From: Flavobacterium sp. N1736
GTDB lineage: Bacteria; Bacteroidota; Bacteroidia; Flavobacteriales; Flavobacteriaceae
NCBI RefSeq assembly: GCF_025947065.1
Contig: NZ_CP109994.1
Coordinates: 4,030,001 to 4,094,000, forward strand
DNA length: 64,000 nucleotides
Reading direction: 5' to 3'
Shown here: piece by piece, positions 26,046 to 35,257 of the stretch
Numbering within the stretch: position 1 is the stretch's first letter
Layout: every line of letters starts with the position of its first letter
Made by a program: the position numbers and the translations under genes
The notes under the pieces: generated by a model
Told to the model about the DNA's origin: nothing
Seen by the model: only the letters and a program-made list of their open reading frames with translations
Database searches by the model: none

Positions 26046-26289
26046 TTTTGGATTTATGTGGCGCTGTTACGGCAGGCAAATTAATACTTTTTGGTGAACA
26101 AATAATGAGATTATATGTTGATTTTAAAGCACATACTATTTTTGCTAATTTTGTAAGGTTATATCGCTTAACAAAAACATTATGAAAAAATTAACGGTTA
26201 TACATCGCACAAATTATGTAATATTTAATTGATTTGTAACAAATATAGATTCCAGGCTACTAATTAGTCAACTATTTAAATCATTGATT

Positions 26290-27486
26290 ATGTATAAAAT
26301 TACGTTGAAATCAGTTTTCGTTGCATCGGCTTTTTTAGTTGGTGTAAGCAGCTCTTTTGCACAAGACGTTTTGGTTAACTCACTAAAGTTAAATGCAAGT
26401 GATAAAAGTAAAGAGAACTTTAAATTCACAGAACAAATTAATTTGGGAACAACTTCGGTAAAAACGCAAGGTTCATCAGGAACATGCTGGAGTTATTCTA
26501 CAAACTCATTTTTAGAGTCAGAAATGATTCGTTTAGGAAAACAGCCTGTAGAATTGTCTCAAATTTACTCTGCAAGAAACGTTTATGTAGAAAAAGGAAT
26601 TAATTATGTGCGTATGCATGGCGCAGTTACTTTGGGTGACGGAGGTGCATTGCATGACGTAATTAATATGTACAAAAAATACGGAACCGTACCAAGGGAA
26701 GTTTACACAGGATTAAACTACGGAACAGATAAAAATAAATTTGGCGAAATGGCCGCTATTATCGAAGGTGTTTTGACTGCTGTGGTGAAGAATCCAAATG
26801 GTGAATTAACACCAAACTGGCAAAAAGCTTATGCAGCCGTTATCGATTCTTATTTAGGAAAAGTGCCGGATAACTTCATCTATAAAGGAAAAAATTACAC
26901 GCCACAATCGTTTGCTAAAGAAGTAGTAGGAATTAATCCTGACGATTATATCGAAATGTCATCTTTTACAACGGCTCCATATTACCAAAAAACAACCATG
27001 ATGGTACCGGACAACTGGTCATTCGATCAGGTTTACAACGTAAAAGTAAACGACATGACAGATGTTATCGACAATGCTTTGAAAAAAGGATATACTGTAG
27101 CGTGGGCAACTGACGTAAGCGAGAAAAGCTTTAGCTGGAAAAATGGTGTAGCTTATGTTCCGCAAAAGAAATTCGATGACATGACCGTCGAAGAAAAAGC
27201 AGACATGTTTAACGGACCAAAACCAGAACCGGAAATTACTCCGGAAATGCGTCAGGCTGCGTTTGACAACTACACAACAACAGACGACCACGGAATGCAC
27301 ATTATTGGTCTTGCAAAAGATCAAACCGGAAGAGAATATTACATCGTAAAAAATTCTTGGGGAGAAACAAACGACTACAAAGGTTTCTTATTCGTAACCA
27401 AAAATTTCGTAAAATATAAAACGACTGCTTTAATGGTGAATAAGGGTGGAATTCCTACTGAGATTGCTAAGAAGTTGGGGGTTTAA
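26290..27486 (+). CDS. Exported C1-family (bleomycin hydrolase type) cysteine peptidase
   Basis: This 398-aa protein has a signal peptide ending near SSFAQDVL. It shows the papain-clan catalytic residues of the C1B family: Cys66 in SGTCWSYSTN, His334 in DDHGMHIIG and Asn355 in YYIVKNSWGE. Bleomycin-hydrolase-type aminopeptidases are often cytoplasmic, so export is notable, though common in Bacteroidota. I preferred ATG 26290 over a TTG two codons upstream. It stands alone with its own terminator. Confidence 0.92.
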   Translation: MYKITLKSVFVASAFLVGVSSSFAQDVLVNSLKLNASDKSKENFKFTEQINLGTTSVKTQGSSGTCWSYSTNSFLESEMIRLGKQPVELSQIYSARNVYVEKGINYVRMHGAVTLGDGGALHDVINMYKKYGTVPREVYTGLNYGTDKNKFGEMAAIIEGVLTAVVKNPNGELTPNWQKAYAAVIDSYLGKVPDNFIYKGKNYTPQSFAKEVVGINPDDYIEMSSFTTAPYYQKTTMMVPDNWSFDQVYNVKVNDMTDVIDNALKKGYTVAWATDVSEKSFSWKNGVAYVPQKKFDDMTVEEKADMFNGPKPEPEITPEMRQAAFDNYTTTDDHGMHIIGLAKDQTGREYYIVKNSWGETNDYKGFLFVTKNFVKYKTTALMVNKGGIPTEIAKKLGV

Positions 27487-27603: not shown

Positions 27604-27984
27604 TCATTTGATTTTTTCGGCTATTACATATGCAATTGAATTTTTTTTGGTGTGGCTAATACTAACATGCCAAGAAGTTATTCCAAGATTGTCGGATCTT
27701 TTTTTCACCTCTCCAAATAATTCAATGAATGGTTGACCATTTTTTGATTGTAAAGTTTGAATATCTTTTAATGAAAGTCCATCTTCCATGCCTATTCCTA
27801 AACATTTTAATACTGCTTCTTTTACAGCGAATCTTCCAGGAATAAAATTTGATTTTTTGTGAGTATTGTATAAATCTATTTCTTTTTGAGAGAAACATCT
27901 TTTTTGTAATTGCGCATTCGAATTCCATTTCAGTTTTTTTATTAAGGAATGCTCAACAATATCACAGCCAATACTAATTATCAT
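27604..27984 (-). CDS. AcpS-type 4'-phosphopantetheinyl transferase (operon-dedicated)
   Basis: This enzyme transfers phosphopantetheine from CoA to a serine on a carrier protein. At 126 aa it has the AcpS length. It shows Asp8 in GCDIVE, GRFAVKEAVLKCLG with Glu56, and WHVSISHT at residues 105-112, all of which bind Mg and CoA. It is the last gene of the eight-gene minus-strand operon and starts 16 bp after the MazG-like gene. Its natural partner is most likely the carrier-like protein at the head of the same operon. It could instead be the organism's only AcpS, which the window cannot decide. Confidence 0.9.
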   Translation of the reverse strand: MIISIGCDIVEHSLIKKLKWNSNAQLQKRCFSQKEIDLYNTHKKSNFIPGRFAVKEAVLKCLGIGMEDGLSLKDIQTLQSKNGQPFIELFGEVKKRSDNLGITSWHVSISHTKKNSIAYVIAEKIK

Positions 27985-28000
27985 ATTGATATAATTAAGT

Positions 28001-28579
28001 TTATAAACTTAACTCATAAATAGCAGTCTTTTCTATCATGTTGAAATGTATATTTCCGCCATTGTTTTTTACTAAGTCATTGAATAATGAATATCCTTTT
28101 AATATTGCACATTCCCATTCTTTCTTACTTCGTTTAGCTACTTCGAAAGTAGATGTCAATTCCTTAATTTGTTTTAATAGAGAAGAACTGATTTTAGTTT
28201 GATTTTTGAAAAAATCTTTTTGTTTAGCTTTATTAAATATAAGTAGAGAAATTGCTTCTTCCGTAATTGTTGCTCTAGCTCCATCTTCAAATTCGTCAAC
28301 AGTAAATATGCTTTTCCTTTTTCTTTTCATCATTGCTCTTGTACATGGAGACCATCCTAACATAGTTGCAAACGTGTAATGAAAGACATCATGAAATCTA
28401 TACGAATCAGCTTCTTCAGAGTTGTCGTCAATAATATCACCAATTTGAGTTCCATTGATTGATACCTTAGTTTTAAATCTTGCATCAACTTTTAATGAAA
28501 CAAAATTCACAGTATATTCTCTTAGAAGCTGTTCATGCTCTTCAAAATTTGAATCGAAAAAAACTATATTCTTTTTCAT
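28001..28579 (-). CDS. MazG-like nucleotide pyrophosphohydrolase (tentative)
   Basis: This 192-aa protein has a conserved-looking core. The block DSYRFHDVFHYTFATMLGWS at residues 59-78 is followed by CTRAMMKRKRKS and EDGARATITEEAISLLIF (residues 98-115). I recall this pattern from MazG-type proteins placed beside modified-nucleotide genes. Paired acidic residues could bind Mg and cleave a (modified) nucleoside triphosphate. The classical EExxE...ExxD MazG signature is not clear, so the activity is uncertain. It lies one base after the dCTP-deaminase-fold gene and is co-translated with it. Confidence 0.6.
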   Translation of the reverse strand: MKKNIVFFDSNFEEHEQLLREYTVNFVSLKVDARFKTKVSINGTQIGDIIDDNSEEADSYRFHDVFHYTFATMLGWSPCTRAMMKRKRKSIFTVDEFEDGARATITEEAISLLIFNKAKQKDFFKNQTKISSSLLKQIKELTSTFEVAKRSKKEWECAILKGYSLFNDLVKNNGGNIHFNMIEKTAIYELSL

Positions 28580-28580
28580 T

Positions 28581-29369
28581 TTATGGATTTTTGAGACGTT
28601 TAATTGTTTTATTTAAACTATCAATTTTAACATTTAGATCGATAATCTTAGATTCCATTTTTTTATACATAGAATCAGAACTAATTTCAATTGCCTTATT
28701 ATTATAACCAAACTCAACTGCTTTTTCCATGTTGTTATGATCAGTCCAAAATTTGACATTAATACCAATTACAAGAGTTAAAATTGCAAGACCAACCCAT
28801 TCTATTTTTGTTAAATGATCTTTTAAGGTATCAATTCTAGAACTAAGTACATTTGGTGAAGCTAATTCATTTTGACTCAATGCTTCAACAGGTTCATTAG
28901 GTATTTTTTCTTGATGTTCATGCTTTCCTTTGTAATCATCTGTCTTACTAATATCCGCAAACCAAATAGGAAAATATTTTTCTCCACTACTTAAAATTAT
29001 AACAGCGGGTCCAGCATTATAAACAGAAAATAATAACTTACCTTCAAATCCAGGATCTACATGAAATCCCGAAACATTTACAAGACCTTTAAATTTAATT
29101 CCTGCCTTTATTGAAATGAAGGCAATTTTATCTTGGGGGACTTTTACTGTTTCTTCTGTAAGAAGCAAAGCAAATTGTCCAGGAGAAATATATATTTTTT
29201 CATCCTTACTCAGCGTTTTTACTGTCCTTGGTTTACTATCTGTCTGAAATACTTGATTACCTAATGATAATTCATAGGCAGCATTTTTTATATTTGCTTC
29301 CTTATAAGGTACAATTACATCTGTTGCCTCAAGAATTTTTATTAATTTTTTGTTACCTACAAATGCCAT
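28581..29369 (-). CDS. dCTP deaminase/dUTPase-fold protein with membrane anchor
   Basis: This 262-aa protein has an N-terminal domain (residues 1-140) with the trimeric dCTP deaminase fold: AAYELSLGNQVF, YISPGQFALLLTEETVKVP and SGFHVDPGFEGKLLFSVYNAG. A hydrophobic segment at about residues 189-207 follows, and then a coiled-coil-like tail at 234-260. Aligned by eye with E. coli Dcd, the catalytic Glu138 position is Ser115 and the RSS motif is lost. It is therefore probably not an ordinary deaminase; it could be a nucleotide sensor or have changed chemistry. The gap of 99 bp upstream holds a possible internal promoter. Confidence 0.72.
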   Translation of the reverse strand: MAFVGNKKLIKILEATDVIVPYKEANIKNAAYELSLGNQVFQTDSKPRTVKTLSKDEKIYISPGQFALLLTEETVKVPQDKIAFISIKAGIKFKGLVNVSGFHVDPGFEGKLLFSVYNAGPAVIILSSGEKYFPIWFADISKTDDYKGKHEHQEKIPNEPVEALSQNELASPNVLSSRIDTLKDHLTKIEWVGLAILTLVIGINVKFWTDHNNMEKAVEFGYNNKAIEISSDSMYKKMESKIIDLNVKIDSLNKTIKRLKNP

Positions 29370-29386
29370 TTACTACTAAGTTTTAA

Positions 29387-29394
29387 CAAAGTTA
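29387..29394 (-). promoter_or_regulatory. Possible internal promoter in the modification operon
   Basis: Minus-strand TAACTTTG fits the TAnnTTTG -7 box and lies 18 bp before the start of the dCTP-deaminase-fold gene, in the only sizeable gap of the operon. I see no clear -33 TTG at the right distance. Confidence 0.4.
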
Positions 29395-29468
29395 CAATAG
29401 TTATCTGTTATTTCATCTAAAAACCAGATAATTACAATCAATCTTTTCAATACTTTTGTTTAATAAAA

Positions 29469-30491
29469 CTAAATGTTTTTATTTATATCCCATTTAGGAG
29501 GGAACCAAAAATCAATAGGTTGTTGGTTCATTTTAAATGTTTGTTTTATTCTTAATCTATCGCTGTTTCCCATTATATCAGGATGTTTGACTCTAGCGTA
29601 TTTATCTACCTCACAAAAGATGTTTTGACAATCTATAAGTTGTAATCTACGACCCCACAATGTTCTGAAAGATAGTTCCAGCCTTTCGAATTCTTTTTCT
29701 TGTATATCGGTCATAAATTTTATGATTTCAACATTACTTAATCCACCTGTATCACTAAAACATTTACTTATGCCTCCTTTTGCTCCAGGTCCAGCTACAA
29801 CAAATTCAGACTCAGAAAAACTTAAAATAGGCGAGTAGTTAATATCAATAACAAGTTGATAAGCTAAAAAATCACCTAGCCCAGGAAAGCTCTTTAATAA
29901 TTCAAAACACTGTTGCATAGTTTTAAAAGACATTAAAAGATCATGGGTGTTTTTATTTATTATTAGTTCAATTAATTTAAGATGATTACTATGTTTTCTT
30001 AAATGTCCAAAATATGATTTACATGAAGACATAATATACGCAGCTGAATAAATTGTATTTTTTGAAATAGCATCTGACAAAACTCTATCGTATTCTTTAA
30101 AATTGTAATCTTCCCACGTCAAATTAAAATTAACAGAAAGTAACTCCCATGTTTCAATTTTGTTAAATAATTTAAATAATAATATTCTAAATAAAATTTC
30201 TTTTGGAGAATTTGGTAGATTCTCATTATAAATTACATGTTTTATTAAATATTGACTAACTCTATCACTGGCTCTATAAACATTAGTAAACTTATATTTA
30301 TTAATGATTGGATCTGAAGTAAACGGGAAATCCATACCTTGAAATCTATTGAAAAAGACTTCTTGTCTTAAAGAAGCAAATTTCCAATAGGAATCAAACA
30401 CTTCAGTTGTTTTTGCTGGTGCCAATGGCACATGAATAATAATTTTACTTTCTTTAGCTTTTAAAACTAATTTTTCCTTTAATTGCTCCAT
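29469..30491 (-). CDS. HMUDK_hel / aGPT-PPlase superfamily protein (hypermodified-base enzyme)
   Basis: This 340-aa protein carries the hallmark blocks of the family containing phage 5-hydroxymethyl-dU DNA kinases and alpha-glutamyl/putrescinyl-thymine pyrophosphorylases. These are FTSDPIINKYKFTNVYRASD (residues 57-76), FPGLGDFLAYQLVIDINY near 203-220 and GPGAKGGISKCFSDTG near 232-247. In phages such enzymes activate or replace the hydroxymethyl group on thymine-like bases, directly in DNA. Here the gene follows a thymidylate-synthase homologue, the enzyme type that makes such bases. The exact reaction is not readable from sequence. It lies 20 bp downstream of the TS-like gene. Confidence 0.78.
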   Translation of the reverse strand: MEQLKEKLVLKAKESKIIIHVPLAPAKTTEVFDSYWKFASLRQEVFFNRFQGMDFPFTSDPIINKYKFTNVYRASDRVSQYLIKHVIYNENLPNSPKEILFRILLFKLFNKIETWELLSVNFNLTWEDYNFKEYDRVLSDAISKNTIYSAAYIMSSCKSYFGHLRKHSNHLKLIELIINKNTHDLLMSFKTMQQCFELLKSFPGLGDFLAYQLVIDINYSPILSFSESEFVVAGPGAKGGISKCFSDTGGLSNVEIIKFMTDIQEKEFERLELSFRTLWGRRLQLIDCQNIFCEVDKYARVKHPDIMGNSDRLRIKQTFKMNQQPIDFWFPPKWDINKNI

Positions 30492-30511
30492 ATTGCAAAA
30501 ATAGCAGTTAA

Positions 30512-31249
30512 TTACTCACAGACTATATTTTCCTTAATATTTTGTAACAATTTTAGACCTTCCTTTTTCCCCAAATAATCAAGTTGCTCCACACCTACAA
30601 AACAATTGAATTTTTCAAATTCTAAATTCATTTCTTTCGCCATAAATTGTCCTAAATATATTAAACCTAGCCAATTCCCATATCCTCTTTCATACAAATA
30701 TTGTATCGCATAAAAACTGTTTAATATTAATCCTCCATTTTTATTCACATAAAATGTTACATGTTGTAAGCAAGGGAATCCTTGGTATGGTAAATCAGTA
30801 TGGTCATATCTTGGATCAAAAATAGATGCTTGTAATTTTGATCTCCTAACACCTTTGTCTTTTAGATAAGAAGATATAATAGTTTCTAATTGATTTTTAT
30901 GTCCATCATATGAAATTAACCTTTCAAAATATGTTCCATTTCTATTCTTTGAGCTTGCTTTTTTTATGCGTATTAAGTTAGTTTTGTATCTTTTGTATAA
31001 TTCAAAACGGTCATATTGCAAATATTGATATAATGATTGTGGAAATATCGTTTCAGCAACAGTTTGAATAGTTGCTTTTTGATTGTCTAAAAGACTTTTG
31101 TCTAATATTTCTCTAATTTTTATATCTTCTTCGAACCCTGTCAAGGTAATTAAAAATGGTGTAAGTTCTTTATGTTTGCTATTGACAGTTAACTCAAGCG
31201 TTTTATACCATGCTTTTGATAAATTTGTCTCCTCTACTTGTTCAATCAT
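30512..31249 (-). CDS. Divergent thymidylate synthase / hydroxymethylase homologue
   Basis: This 245-aa protein shows the thymidylate synthase core. VRRSKLQASIFDP (Arg135-Arg136) matches the arginine pair before the active site. GFPCLQHVTFYV supplies the nucleophile Cys160, and GGLILNSFYAIQYLYERGYGN follows as the next strand and helix. The His after the catalytic Cys is Leu. The phosphate-binding RSxD segment and the late DxHxY motif are absent. It therefore likely uses a substrate other than plain dUMP, perhaps making a 5-hydroxymethyl or 5-substituted pyrimidine. It lies between the ImmA gene and the HMUDK-like gene with gaps of 13 and 20 bp. Confidence 0.75.
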   Translation of the reverse strand: MIEQVEETNLSKAWYKTLELTVNSKHKELTPFLITLTGFEEDIKIREILDKSLLDNQKATIQTVAETIFPQSLYQYLQYDRFELYKRYKTNLIRIKKASSKNRNGTYFERLISYDGHKNQLETIISSYLKDKGVRRSKLQASIFDPRYDHTDLPYQGFPCLQHVTFYVNKNGGLILNSFYAIQYLYERGYGNWLGLIYLGQFMAKEMNLEFEKFNCFVGVEQLDYLGKKEGLKLLQNIKENIVCE

Positions 31250-31262
31250 CTTATTTGTTTTT

Positions 31263-32099
31263 TTAGTTCTCTAAATGGCGATATTCTGAAAGGCCAACAT
31301 ATCTTTCATTTTGTATTCTGATAAAACAGGAAATTTCGTCATTTGTAGCTCTCGATATTCCAGCTTTTATTGATTTATAAGCAATCCCTAAAGATGTAAC
31401 TTTAAATTCTTGTAAATGATCACTTTTAATTTTTATTGAGGGTGGTAAAATGATATAATTGTTGACTTCTAAATCAATGATTTTTGGATCTGATTTTCCA
31501 TCAAGAATTTTAAAATGAGTATTTTCAACTTGTTCTCCGAATATGCTTTTTAACAATTTTGCAGGTGTATATTTCAAAAGAGATTCAGCTTTTGATTTAC
31601 TAATAATTTTATTTGCACGACAATGTACTATTAGCGTTCCATAACCTGTCCCAAAGATTGAAGAAATCGTATAGAATTCGAAAGGACCAACCTCTTCTGG
31701 AATCCAGTTTCTCTTAACAAATTCAGCCTTTATAGCTATGATTGGCATTAGTAGCGCTCCGGCAAACATATCTACTAATTTTTCCTCTTCATTATTAGAT
31801 GAAAATCCATTACTATTTAATTCATCCACTTTTGTTCCATGGTTAAAAACATGATGTCCAAGTTCATGTGCGCAAGTATAAGCCCTTCTTGGCATGGGGC
31901 GAAGACTTGAAAGTAAGATAGTTGAGTAAGATGAAGTATTCTTTATATACATTCCTTCCATATTAATATCTGCAAATCTTACATCTAAACCTAATTTTGT
32001 GCATGAATCAAAGATATTAATTGGCTCATGCAAACTAAGTTTAAGTGTATTTCTAATTTCACCAGCCATCCTTACTGCTTGCATATAAAGAAAATCCAT
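31263..32099 (-). CDS. ImmA/IrrE-family metallo-endopeptidase
   Basis: This 278-aa protein has the zinc-protease motif HELGHHVFNH near residues 79-88 and a following EEEKLVDMFAGALLMP with the third ligand region. ImmA proteins cleave or inactivate partner repressors of the XRE type in mobile elements such as ICEBs1. The preceding gene, three bases upstream, encodes exactly such a repressor. I infer that a stress or phage signal triggers this protease to destroy the repressor and open the operon. The C-terminal half (about residues 130-278) may be the sensor. Confidence 0.9.
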   Translation of the reverse strand: MDFLYMQAVRMAGEIRNTLKLSLHEPINIFDSCTKLGLDVRFADINMEGMYIKNTSSYSTILLSSLRPMPRRAYTCAHELGHHVFNHGTKVDELNSNGFSSNNEEEKLVDMFAGALLMPIIAIKAEFVKRNWIPEEVGPFEFYTISSIFGTGYGTLIVHCRANKIISKSKAESLLKYTPAKLLKSIFGEQVENTHFKILDGKSDPKIIDLEVNNYIILPPSIKIKSDHLQEFKVTSLGIAYKSIKAGISRATNDEISCFIRIQNERYVGLSEYRHLEN

Positions 32100-32102
32100 A
32101 TT

Positions 32103-32441
32103 TTAACGTTTTTTAGGAAGAATTTTTAAAATATCCATTACCTTTTTTAAATCTTCTTCACTTAATTTTTCTAATTCTCTAGCGGCCAGTTTAAATTGTT
32201 CTGTTTCTTCTTGGGAATCTTGAAGCAGTAACCAATTACTATCAACCTTATATAAATTGGCAAATTGAATTACTTCTTCGGCACTTACTTTTCGATTACC
32301 TGCTTCAATTTCAGAGATTGCTGGCCGTTGAAGTTTTAGCTGGGTTGCTGCTTGGGCCTGTGACAAACCAGATGATATTCTAGCTTCTTTAAGTCTTTCA
32401 GCAATTTTTTCCCGACTTGAACTCGCATTATTATTTTCCAT
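32103..32441 (-). CDS. XRE-family repressor of the modification operon
   Basis: This 112-aa protein has an HTH_3 domain at about residues 10-66 (LKEARISSGLSQAQAATQLK, RPAISEIEAGNRKVSAEE) and a short helical tail (ELEKLSEEDLKKVMDILKIL). Its start overlaps the end of the carrier-like gene by 11 bp, and it is followed by the ImmA gene. It is the best candidate to bind the perfect inverted repeat in the operon promoter at 32746-32760. Pairing with ImmA suggests control by regulated proteolysis. Confidence 0.92.
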   Translation of the reverse strand: MENNNASSSREKIAERLKEARISSGLSQAQAATQLKLQRPAISEIEAGNRKVSAEEVIQFANLYKVDSNWLLLQDSQEETEQFKLAARELEKLSEEDLKKVMDILKILPKKR

Positions 32442-32721
32442 AGTCTTTTCCTTCTTTAATCAGTTTTTTAGCCGCTTCTATTATTGATAATTGTTTTTTA
32501 GATTTTTTATCATGAAATATATAACAATCGTGAGGGATTTCTACTTTTAATTTGATGGATAATTCGGATATTACATCAATGAGAATTATGCTAGATATGC
32601 CTGAAATATTTCCAGGACAACTATTACTGTTGATTTCACCTCGAATTCCTAAAAGTTTTTGTGTGTCAGTGATAACTTTTACAATCTCATTTTCTACTAT
32701 TTGTTGACTAAGTGTTACCAT
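32431..32721 (-). CDS. Acyl-carrier-like protein (phosphopantetheine carrier)
   Basis: This 96-aa protein aligns along its length with ACP. An N-terminal helix ENEIVKVITDTQKLLGI is followed by a loop, then GISSIILIDVISEL with Ser44 at the phosphopantetheine site (SSI in place of the usual DSL). Next come KLKVEIPHDCYIF and a last helix LSIIEAAKKLI. The operon also encodes an AcpS-type transferase, which strongly supports a true carrier. I start it at ATG 32721, immediately after a good promoter; an ORF start further upstream would lie inside that promoter. It probably tethers an acyl or aminoacyl group for the nucleotide-modifying enzymes. Confidence 0.78.
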   Translation of the reverse strand: MVTLSQQIVENEIVKVITDTQKLLGIRGEINSNSCPGNISGISSIILIDVISELSIKLKVEIPHDCYIFHDKKSKKQLSIIEAAKKLIKEGKDYGK

Positions 32722-32741
32722 TTGTATGATTTTTATACAAA
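32721..32741. promoter_or_regulatory. Second inverted repeat at the operon start site
   Basis: TTTGTAT, a 7-bp spacer and ATACAAA. It overlaps the end of the -7 box and the start codon. It could be a second repressor site or an mRNA hairpin. Confidence 0.5.
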
Positions 32742-32768
32742 TGTAGTAAGAAAATCTTACCAAGCAAA
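32738..32768 (-). promoter_or_regulatory. Promoter of the carrier-TS-HMUDK operon
   Basis: Minus-strand TTTG (32765-32768), a 19-bp spacer and TACATTTG (32738-32745) match the Bacteroidota -33/-7 pattern. The predicted transcription start lies only about 10 nt before ATG 32721. Confidence 0.75.
32746..32760. promoter_or_regulatory. Operator-like perfect inverted repeat inside the promoter
   Basis: GTAAGA-AAA-TCTTAC is a perfect 6+3+6 palindrome that fills the spacer, abutting the -7 box. A bound XRE dimer here would block RNA polymerase. A second inverted repeat, TTTGTAT...ATACAAA, spans 32721-32741 over the start site. Confidence 0.72.
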
Positions 32769-32898: not shown

Positions 32899-33294
32899 CT
32901 ACTTCCCTTTCAACAGCTTCTCTAAATATTCTACTTTTTCTTTTTCAGCCAAAACCAAACGCTCATAAAGTTCCACAACTTTATCAAGAGGATTAAATGA
33001 GCATTGATGATTTACCGTTGGTCCAGCATTAATAACAGATCCTTCATAGTTATTTTGGATATTGTTTAAAATAGCTTCTTCAGAGAAATTTTTAATAGCT
33101 TCAGCCGAAACACCTAATATTTTAGCAATTGCCTGAAGTTTTTCATCATCAATTGTTTCGCTGTTTTCCATAATCGAAATAGACTGTTGGCTCACGCCTA
33201 AAGCATACGCTAGTGCTTCTTGTTTCATATCTTGAAGTTCACGAATACGGCTAATTTTTCGCCCTATATGATTTGGTTTTGTTAGTGTGCTCAT
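32899..33294 (-). CDS. XRE-family transcription regulator
   Basis: This 131-aa protein has an HTH_3 domain at about residues 10-65 (RIRELQDMKQEALAYALGVS, QQSISIMENSE). A C-terminal coiled-coil-like tail (KVVELYERLVLAEKEKVEYLEKLLKGK) probably dimerises it. It is separated from the modification operon by a terminator. I recall very similar proteins as ordinary chromosomal regulators in Flavobacterium, so it may not belong to the island. The target is unknown. Confidence 0.88.
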   Translation of the reverse strand: MSTLTKPNHIGRKISRIRELQDMKQEALAYALGVSQQSISIMENSETIDDEKLQAIAKILGVSAEAIKNFSEEAILNNIQNNYEGSVINAGPTVNHQCSFNPLDKVVELYERLVLAEKEKVEYLEKLLKGK

Positions 33295-33637: not shown

Positions 33638-33644
33638 TAATAAG

Positions 33645-33718
33645 CTCCCCCTCTTGGGCTCGAACCAAGGACCCTCTGATTAACAGTCAGATGCTCTAAC
33701 CAACTGAGCTAAGGAGGA
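33645..33718 (-). tRNA. tRNA-Asn (GTT), downstream copy
   Basis: On the minus strand a 74-nt cloverleaf runs from TCCTCCTTAGCTCAG to the 3' acceptor strand AGGGGGA plus G. The anticodon loop is CTGTTAA with anticodon GTT, and the T-loop is TTCGAGC. CCA is not encoded. It is identical in its body to the copy at 33757-33830. Confidence 0.95.
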
Positions 33719-33756
33719 ATCACCTTAAAGGTAAATATGTTTGCTAAAAAAAGTTG

Positions 33757-33830
33757 CTCCCCCTCTTGGGCTCGAACCAAGGACCCTCTGATTAACAGTC
33801 AGATGCTCTAACCAACTGAGCTAAGGAGGA
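33757..33830 (-). tRNA. tRNA-Asn (GTT), upstream copy
   Basis: Same 74-nt cloverleaf with anticodon GTT as the copy 38 bp downstream. The two are probably made from one transcript ended by the hairpin at 33603-33637. Confidence 0.95.
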
Positions 33831-33913: not shown

Positions 33914-35257
33914 TTACTTGCCTACAATTGCCTTGTAAATATCGTTTCCGTTAGCAAACAAAAGCAGCGTGATAAGTAATACGAAACCAACCATTTGGGC
34001 GTTCTCAAGGAATTTATCGCTTGGTTTACGACCACTAATTATTTCGTATAATAAAAACATCACATGACCACCGTCAAGTGCCGGAATTGGCAATAAATTC
34101 ATAACTCCAAGCATAATCGACAATAAAGCGGTAATCGACCAGAACGTTTCCCAGCTCCAAGAAGTAGGGAAAATATTAAAAATCGCCGCAAAACCACCTA
34201 CTTGTTTATATGCTTTTGTTTCAGGATTAAAAATCATTTTCAATTGCTTGCCGTAACCTACTAATTGATCCTTACCTTTTGTAAGTCCAACCGGAATAGA
34301 TTCGAAAAAGCTGTATTCTTTTGTGCTTATTTTATAGTAACCAAGTTTTTCTAAAGATTCCATACCCAAACCACCGGTAATAACACCTAATTTTCCTGTT
34401 GCCGAAACCTTTACAGTAATTGGAGTTTCTTTTAAATCTCGTAATACAACTGCCGGAATAGTTTTTCCTTTATTAGCTTCTAAAACAACTTTTGCTTCAT
34501 CAAAATATTTTATTTTTTGACCATTCAGGCTTACAATTAAATCTTTTGGTTTTAGAGATGAATTTCCTGACTCTTCGGCAACTTTACCTACAACAAATGG
34601 CATTCTAATACCTACAAGTAATCCTTTTTCGTGTTTTGATAACTGATCTACAAAATCATTCGGGATATTGATCGTTTGCTGTTGTCCGTTTCTTTCAATC
34701 AATACATGTTTCGACATGATGACATTCATGTTCATATCATTGTCAAAATTCTCAACTTTTTTACCATCGATAGAAATAATTTTATCTCCGGTTCTAAATC
34801 CTGCTTTAATCATTGCGGGATTTTCAATGTAAACACCATCTTTCAAATCAGAATTTGCCACATAAGTATCGCCATAAGCAAACGCCATTCCGATATAAAT
34901 AATAAATGCCAGGATAAAGTTTACTGTAACACCGCCCAACATAATAATCAAACGCTGCCAAGCTGGTTTCGAACGAAATTCCCAAGGTTGAGGTGGCAAA
35001 GCCATTTGTTCCTTGTCCATACTTTCGTCGATCATTCCAGAAATTTTCACATAACCACCAAGCGGCAGCCATCCAATTCCGTATTCTGTTTCGCCAATTT
35101 TCTTTTTTAACAGCGAATATTTAACATCAAAAAATAAGTAAAATTTTTCAACTCTCGTTTTAAACAATTTTGCAGGAATAAAATGTCCTAATTCGTGAAG
35201 AATAATAAGTAAAGATAAACTCAATAGAAATTGAGAGAGTTTGATAACTATATCCAT
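33914..35257 (-). CDS. RIP metalloprotease RseP
   Basis: This site-2 intramembrane zinc protease cleaves membrane anti-sigma factors during envelope stress. The 447-aa protein has HELGHFIPAKLF with His21, Glu22 and His25 in the first membrane segment. It has two PDZ-like regions (about residues 125-300) and the late NLLPIPALDGGHV motif with the metal-binding Asp. A TACTTTTG box lies upstream at 35287-35294 on the minus strand. Bacteroidota RseP homologues can release ECF sigma factors, so the sigma/membrane-protein pair at 3491-4454 is a conceivable client. Confidence 0.94.
   Translation of the reverse strand: MDIVIKLSQFLLSLSLLIILHELGHFIPAKLFKTRVEKFYLFFDVKYSLLKKKIGETEYGIGWLPLGGYVKISGMIDESMDKEQMALPPQPWEFRSKPAWQRLIIMLGGVTVNFILAFIIYIGMAFAYGDTYVANSDLKDGVYIENPAMIKAGFRTGDKIISIDGKKVENFDNDMNMNVIMSKHVLIERNGQQQTINIPNDFVDQLSKHEKGLLVGIRMPFVVGKVAEESGNSSLKPKDLIVSLNGQKIKYFDEAKVVLEANKGKTIPAVVLRDLKETPITVKVSATGKLGVITGGLGMESLEKLGYYKISTKEYSFFESIPVGLTKGKDQLVGYGKQLKMIFNPETKAYKQVGGFAAIFNIFPTSWSWETFWSITALLSIMLGVMNLLPIPALDGGHVMFLLYEIISGRKPSDKFLENAQMVGFVLLITLLLFANGNDIYKAIVGK

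Follow-up and report, generated by a model that had tools for sequence, protein, structure and literature searches.

The 64,000-nucleotide stretch of Flavobacterium sp. N1736 DNA analysed here (contig NZ_CP109994.1, positions 4,030,001 to 4,094,000; hereafter the window) contains an operon of eight minus-strand open reading frames (ORFs), running from an ATG at 32721 to 27604 and encoding, in order, an acyl carrier protein (ACP)-like protein, an XRE-family repressor, an ImmA-type protease, a thymidylate synthase (TS)-like enzyme, an HMUDK_hel protein, a dCTP deaminase (DCD)-like protein, a MazG_C protein and an AcpS-type transferase. The ACP, XRE, ImmA and TS-like proteins, together with a DNA-glycosylase-type protein, form a core that recurs across phyla. 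The reading preferred here, tentatively, is that the operon may encode inducible immunity in which a deoxyuridine substituted at C5 is made and the modified base is then acted on in invading DNA.

A gene set conserved across phyla

When 84,980 species genomes were scanned with the TS-like gene, 226 relatives were identified, the best 80 of which were fetched, and the resulting neighbourhood set comprised 89 loci (L002-L090: 80 genome contigs, eight plasmid and one viral), 78 with sufficient upstream and 76 with sufficient downstream sequence. Beside the TS-like gene lie those for the ACP (74/78), the XRE protein (75/78) and ImmA (76/78), while HMUDK_hel is encoded in 73 of 76 loci and a uracil-DNA glycosylase (UDG) takes its place in three, such that one or the other is found in 76/76. 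MazG_C is present in 62, AcpS in 56 and DCD in 29 of these 76 loci. Front genes are absent from L018, L043 and L054, and L006 has an annotated ACP that the ACP profile missed. The ACP-XRE-ImmA-TS front occurs in the same order in nine phyla (Bacteroidota, Cyanobacteriota, Pseudomonadota, Planctomycetota, Armatimonadota, Chloroflexota, Acidobacteriota, Binatota and Actinomycetota; labels taken from record titles, several records being metagenome-assembled genomes), and its order is identical in all five hold-out loci (L127-L131), which were not used for finding the patterns and lie on contigs that match none of the first 80 in length. Since many of the alphaproteobacterial loci are closely related, the locus counts do not represent independent events. 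Chance gene order was rejected given the co-conservation seen in the 89 loci and the hold-out set. The original prediction had proposed that shared conservation of the carrier, AcpS, TS-like and HMUDK-like genes would mark a unit, and the counts for the ACP and for HMUDK_hel or UDG do indicate one unit, with AcpS in the 56 loci given above; its suggestion that XRE and ImmA belong to the system is likewise borne out, both being core genes accompanied by a conserved operator.

Around this core the gene content varies. MazG_C was not found in 14/76 loci, of which nine have a second TS, or else a metallophosphoesterase picked up by the TS profile, and five have neither; the second TS or such a metallophosphoesterase occurs in 14/76 loci in all, three being metallophosphoesterase-only and one a fragment. 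The metallophosphoesterase, of approximately 720 aa, weakly resembles TS in a C-terminal region (PF00303, marginally below cut-off, checked in L069) and is encoded in eight loci (L069:12481-14643, L007, L063, L075, L080, L086, L087 and L090), five of them without MazG_C. In four variants (L007-L010) a papain-like C1 peptidase lies between ImmA and TS, and in one of these (L009:5321-7023) ImmA ends in an I42 inhibitor domain of the chagasin type, so that a protease and an inhibitor are paired within one operon. In six cyanobacterial loci (L030, L031, L034, L036, L037 and L038) related genes follow the system, identified by Pfam as DUF1643 in L030.

Carrier, thymidylate synthase-like and glycosylase-type proteins

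The ACP-like protein (32431..32721) has 96 aa when read from its preferred start, the ATG at 32721, and matches no Pfam family over cut-off. Comparison of its family profile with the PDB gave ACPs as the top matches (E ~1e-3), aligned across the DSL site, which corresponds to the serine motif at which ACPs carry phosphopantetheine. This serine, Ser44 in the window protein, is kept in 81 of 82 ACP-like sequences, the remaining one having a gap. The AcpS-type phosphopantetheinyl transferase (27604..27984; TIGR00516, 8.6e-29, over cut-off; PF01648, 1e-15) closes the operon. That these are the housekeeping ACP and AcpS was judged unlikely because both genes sit within the operon in relatives.

The TS-like enzyme (30512..31249) matches TIGR03283 at 1e-13, under the curated cut-off, and aligns with TS by hhalign (probability 96.2, E 2.2e-9). 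Cys160 and Asn192 are each kept in 90/90 sequences, and these two residues, the kept ACP serine and the locus counts speak for the preferred reading. The closest solved relative is a CMP 5-hydroxymethylase (5b6d, E 0.017), presumably MilA of a nucleoside antibiotic pathway. In one Rhizobium ruizarguesonis locus (L095:4681-5515) the gene is read as two ORFs, each matching the TS-like family.

The HMUDK_hel protein (29469..30491; PF18723, E=5.9e-106), named for the helical part of phage 5-hydroxymethyldeoxyuridine (5-hmdU) DNA kinase, has a predicted helix-hairpin-helix (HhH) DNA-glycosylase-like fold. The top structural match of its predicted structure is the PaMx11 5-PmdU glycinyltransferase, beneath which lie mostly HhH DNA glycosylases; the model resembles both a phage enzyme that decorates thymine and DNA glycosylases of the base-flipping kind, glycosylase activity being putative; a sequence search of the PDB returned unrelated proteins only. 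A base-flipping role on DNA would fit with the replacement of HMUDK_hel by UDG. In four loci a dTMP-kinase-like P-loop domain is fused to the N-terminus of HMUDK_hel (L048 and L071 by Pfam, L044 and L055 by eye), which would fit with the charging of a modified deoxynucleoside monophosphate (dNMP); the L071 fusion protein has no similarity to PaMx11 gp49 by BLASTP. Among 50,697 phage records, 472 contain relatives of HMUDK_hel, and a distant blastn search with one HMUDK_hel gene, a comparison at the DNA level only, gave no match in 20,395 E. coli records. The gene is also found outside the ACP operon: on four plasmids (L094, L099, L100 and L101, one of them archaeal) it lies near genes for TIR (in three with Nmad2), patatin, radical-SAM, O-methyltransferase or DUF4231 proteins, and on two sphingomonad plasmids (L096 and L098) it has dnaE on one side and, on the other, a gene of exonuclease type, which in L096 is dnaQ.

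Between HMUDK_hel and AcpS are encoded a protein of dCTP-deaminase/dUTPase fold (28581..29369; PF22769, 4.2e-14; TIGR02274, 8.5e-20, under cut-off), which by eye has a hydrophobic stretch at its C-terminus, and the MazG_C protein (28001..28579; PF18722, 3.5e-67). The latter had been called MazG, which holds for the C-terminal domain and fails for the N-terminal one, absent here as in 15 further members of the 69 loci with MazG_C (window included; 16 lack it), the other 53 having both. Its AlphaFold2 model (pLDDT 94.6) found no convincing match in the PDB. The earlier gene calls are otherwise upheld by placement in PF18723, PF18722, PF22769, ACPS, Peptidase_M78, HTH_3 and TIGR03283; in particular, the proposal that profile searches should place the HMUDK-like and TS-like proteins in those families was followed up, with the former falling in PF18723 and the latter among TS relatives, at a score under cut-off.

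Promoter, operator and regulation

The eight genes had been described as transcribed from one promoter, and the only match to a Bacteroidota-type promoter on the operon strand between 27500 and 33400 lies at 32738..32767 (TTG at -33, 19 nt, TACATTTG at -7; pattern TTG-N17..24-TAnnTTTG, with 12 matches per strand across the 64-kb window). The pattern follows the promoter consensus of Bacteroidota. The ACP and XRE genes overlap by 11 bp, and the following genes are separated by 3 bp (XRE-ImmA), 13 bp (ImmA-TS), 20 bp (TS-HMUDK_hel), 99 bp (HMUDK_hel-DCD), 1 bp (DCD-MazG_C) and 16 bp (MazG_C-AcpS); the overlaps or gaps of 1-20 bp originally described therefore hold for six of seven junctions and not for the 99-bp gap. 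GC content is 29.1% in the operon and 33.5% in the rest of the window; among 118 overlapping segments of equal length, a number of them including the operon, no lower value occurs.

An inverted-repeat search identified an operator, GTAAGATTTTCTTAC, at 32746..32760 on the minus strand, between -33 and -7, which is presumed to be the site bound by the XRE protein. The 15-bp operator GTAAGAnnnTCTTAC is exact in 60/81 loci, between -250 and +60 of the ACP start, and is present with at most one mismatch in 70/81; the 11 upstream regions without it at this threshold include all four C1-peptidase variants. In the hold-out loci it is exact in 3/5 and within one mismatch in 4/5. Across 1.37 Mb of loci, 61 of 63 exact copies lie at the ACP promoter. 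The window's own genome (5.1 Mb) has one other copy, with a GCT spacer and within an ORF that by eye is SusC-like, and for these two reasons it was taken as chance; the copy at the ACP promoter is the sole AT-spaced one in this genome. The operator could serve as a DNA signature for locating further copies of the system.

The XRE-family helix-turn-helix repressor (32103..32441; HTH_3, 6.2e-12) and the ImmA/IrrE-type zinc protease (31263..32099; Peptidase_M78, 9.2e-12) have as their top PADLOC models capH (2.8e-17) and capP (5.3e-15), respectively. The protease carries HELGH, and HExxH is kept in 83/84 ImmA-family proteins (window included). Cleavage of XRE-type repressors by ImmA proteins has precedents in CapP/CapH and ImmA/ImmR, and by analogy the ImmA of the operon may cleave its XRE repressor upon phage attack. 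The operator, together with an XRE/ImmA pair closest to capH/capP, supports this regulation.

Genomic site and distribution

To one side of the operon lies a C1-peptidase gene (26284-27486) and to the other are two tRNA-Asn genes (33644..33830, minus strand; ARAGORN and Rfam tRNA), which border a variable site and lie outside the operon. In four genomes of the same genus the cargo of this interval varies: an anti-phage dCTP deaminase (PADLOC dCTPase, 4.9e-162), a SocA/Panacea antitoxin, a zeta-toxin-like kinase and an SDH-type protease were found, and the cargo is of defence or toxin-antitoxin type in three of the four. A second XRE gene lies upstream (32899-33294); given that, of four relatives whose cargo differs, three keep a related gene, it appears to be part of the site and not of the system. 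An RseP-like protease is encoded at 33914-35257, with a second genomic copy (G000:C1:3999638-4000939) that is 74% identical.

The system is sporadic, occurring in 2/150 relatives and in 5/395 genomes of a phylum sample, own genome counted, in searches at E <= 1e-20 that may miss divergent forms. Among 72,556 plasmid records, 18 carry relatives of the TS-like protein, and conjugation is predicted for 13 of the 18; two viral contigs carry relatives as well. That it is a common phage gene was rejected, tblastn having given no match in the 50,697 phage records. Proteins of AbiE, SoFic, Gabija, Shedu, Kiwa and Hachiman are among the 25 listed of 105 families matched in the flanks of other loci. This flank scan took in 148 of 245 proteins, themselves selected from 686 ORFs in the flanks, and had no matched control. 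A pair of TIR and Nmad2 genes lies within 3 kb of 4/89 ACP loci (TIR Pfam-checked in L021 and Nmad2 in L086), and the pair is also near HMUDK_hel genes on the three plasmids described above. Four cyanobacterial copies (L002, L033, L035 and L039) adjoin dnaX- and holA-type genes, with dnaN nearby in L002.

Proposed mechanism and alternative readings

Under the preferred immune reading, phage attack or DNA damage would activate ImmA, leading to cleavage of the XRE repressor on the operator between -33 and -7, and AcpS would place a phosphopantetheine thiol on the ACP. By means of its cysteine the TS-like enzyme would then attach a one-carbon unit to C5 of a deoxyuridine nucleotide, and this added carbon would be joined to the thiol of the ACP or to a group that the ACP carries. 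A dNMP kinase, which is fused or adjacent in some relatives and would be the host's here, and a polymerase would bring the base into DNA, where the base-flipping HMUDK_hel may act on it, modifying it further or excising it, and so block phage replication. MazG, DCD, or the metallophosphoesterase and second TS may push the pool of deoxynucleoside triphosphates (dNTPs) toward the substrate. The least certain step is the role of the ACP, whether as thiol nucleophile or as group donor. The immune part of this reading is supported by the sporadic distribution, the defence-type cargo of the site, the defence proteins in the flanks and the TIR and Nmad2 pair; the chemistry is supported by the cluster of P-loop, HMUDK_hel and TS genes in PaMx11, the structural matches of HMUDK_hel, the UDG swap and the dTMP-kinase-like fusions. 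In its simplest form, however, the reading has several points to answer: Pfam found among the operon proteins neither the P-loop 5-hmdU DNA kinase (PF18748), nor any P-loop kinase family, nor an amino-acid:DNA transferase (ADDT) or aGPT-PPlase; no carrier-loading enzyme was seen in the operon; and the phosphate-binding Arg position of TS is Ala or Pro in 85/90 TS-like sequences. The original prediction of a nucleotide- or DNA-modifying system is partly supported, by the conserved unit, the regulated core, the phage relatives of HMUDK_hel, the plasmid and viral relatives of the TS-like protein and the variable site, and is weakened in that simplest form. It is a bolder suggestion, and a doubtful one, that this would be the first carrier-protein-run immune chemistry, in which the TS-like enzyme captures the C5 methylene with the ACP phosphopantetheine thiol (or a carried group), a base-flipping glycosylase-type enzyme makes of the thiol-borne pyrimidine a mark or a lesion within the DNA of the phage, and one operator switch serves across phyla. 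If so, the carrier-protein chemistry by which fatty acids and polyketides are made would extend to bacterial immunity and to the modification of nucleotides and DNA. Given its conserved core, its own regulator pair and the short cross-phylum operator, the system is directly testable.

The same enzyme classes build the hypermodified thymines of phages, which raises the possibility that the system decorates pyrimidines of its own mobile element and so hides that DNA from restriction, as those phages do. The plasmid and viral relatives of the TS-like protein and the replication genes beside some copies (dnaX/holA-type in four related cyanobacterial loci, dnaE beside HMUDK_hel on two plasmids) point the same way. 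This scenario is nevertheless unlikely: XRE/ImmA-type repression speaks against constitutive marking, the window copy lies in the chromosome, where the corresponding site of relatives holds defence and toxin-antitoxin-type cargo, and the operon has no ADDT/aGPT-PPlase gene. It is similarly improbable that the product of the operon is a messenger, a modified nucleotide by which a killing effector, for example a TIR or patatin protein, is activated. The TIR and Nmad2 pairs near ACP-type loci and near plasmid HMUDK_hel genes would suit such a messenger, as would a CBASS-type phospholipase at one HMUDK_hel and MazG plasmid locus and the patatins among the flank proteins (3/148); however, the TIR search gave the pair in only 4/89 loci, none of the eight window operon proteins is such an effector, and there is no cyclase or known messenger synthase among them.

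In a further reading, HMUDK_hel or UDG might bind and excise 5-hmdU or uracil already present in phage DNA, in the manner of Brig1/Brig3, the other genes tuning pools and regulation; the predicted HhH glycosylase-like fold, the UDG swap and, according to its abstract, the Brig3 precedent (PMC13160076) are consistent with this, but it would leave the invariant cysteine of the TS-like protein, the carrier protein and AcpS unexplained and requires a glycosylase activity that is putative, and is accordingly regarded as quite unlikely. That the operon serves ordinary metabolism outside any conflict, as a cluster for nucleotide salvage or for a nucleoside of antibiotic type, is suggested by the CMP 5-hydroxymethylase as closest solved TS relative and is very improbable, given the sporadic distribution, the variable defence-type site, the repressor and protease genes in the core and the lack of any exporter or ligase family among the eight operon proteins.

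Comparison with known systems

Several of the domains discussed here reportedly go back to Iyer 2013 and Burroughs 2015. The operon shares the XRE and ImmA pair with CBASS CapH/CapP; the cargo differs, there being no CD-NTase cyclase or effector among the operon proteins. With the anti-phage dCTP deaminase, a bona fide copy of which occupies the same site in a same-genus genome, it shares a dNTP-pool enzyme, but the window protein is of DCD/dUTPase fold (PF22769, no PADLOC match) whereas the anti-phage enzyme is of CDA fold (PF00383). The restriction glycosylases Brig1 and Brig3 provide a likeness in the use of a glycosylase-type base-flipping protein in defence, and the abstract names no TS or carrier protein for Brig (PMC13160076). 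Among systems described for DefensePredictor, TS, dNMP kinase, 5-hmdU kinase and NMAD are listed among the domains of those validated against phage in E. coli, and aGPT-PPlase, MazG, MazG-C, dUTPase, NMAD and UDG among those of predicted systems (PMC13092281). These domains overlap with those of the operon; the main text contains no match for 'acyl carrier', 'carrier protein' or 'ImmA', and the legends are silent on which domains share an operon (PMC13092281). Related domains have thus already been implicated in defence, as far as that text describes them (PMC13092281), and the carrier-protein version was not found in searches of open-licence literature. Within those searches, which do not extend to two key older papers, the statement that no described system has this gene set holds.

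The likeness to phage thymidine hypermodification of the PaMx11, M6 and ViI types lies in the TS-family enzyme and HMUDK_hel. In PaMx11 the HMUDK_hel protein gp50, 26% identical to that of the window over 302 aligned positions, is encoded beside the TS gp51, its gene lying between that TS and a gene for a P-loop protein whose match to HMUDK is weak (PF18748, E 0.002, under cut-off); in some relatives of the operon a dTMP-kinase-like domain is found instead of the phage P-loop 5-hmdU kinase. Judged by its protein families, the operon would work like phage thymine hypermodification without being a member of it, given that the kinase and transferase families are absent, and to the shared enzymes it adds the ACP, AcpS, XRE and ImmA. 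Should the preferred immune reading be correct, it would represent a cellular counterpart to viral thymine hypermodification.

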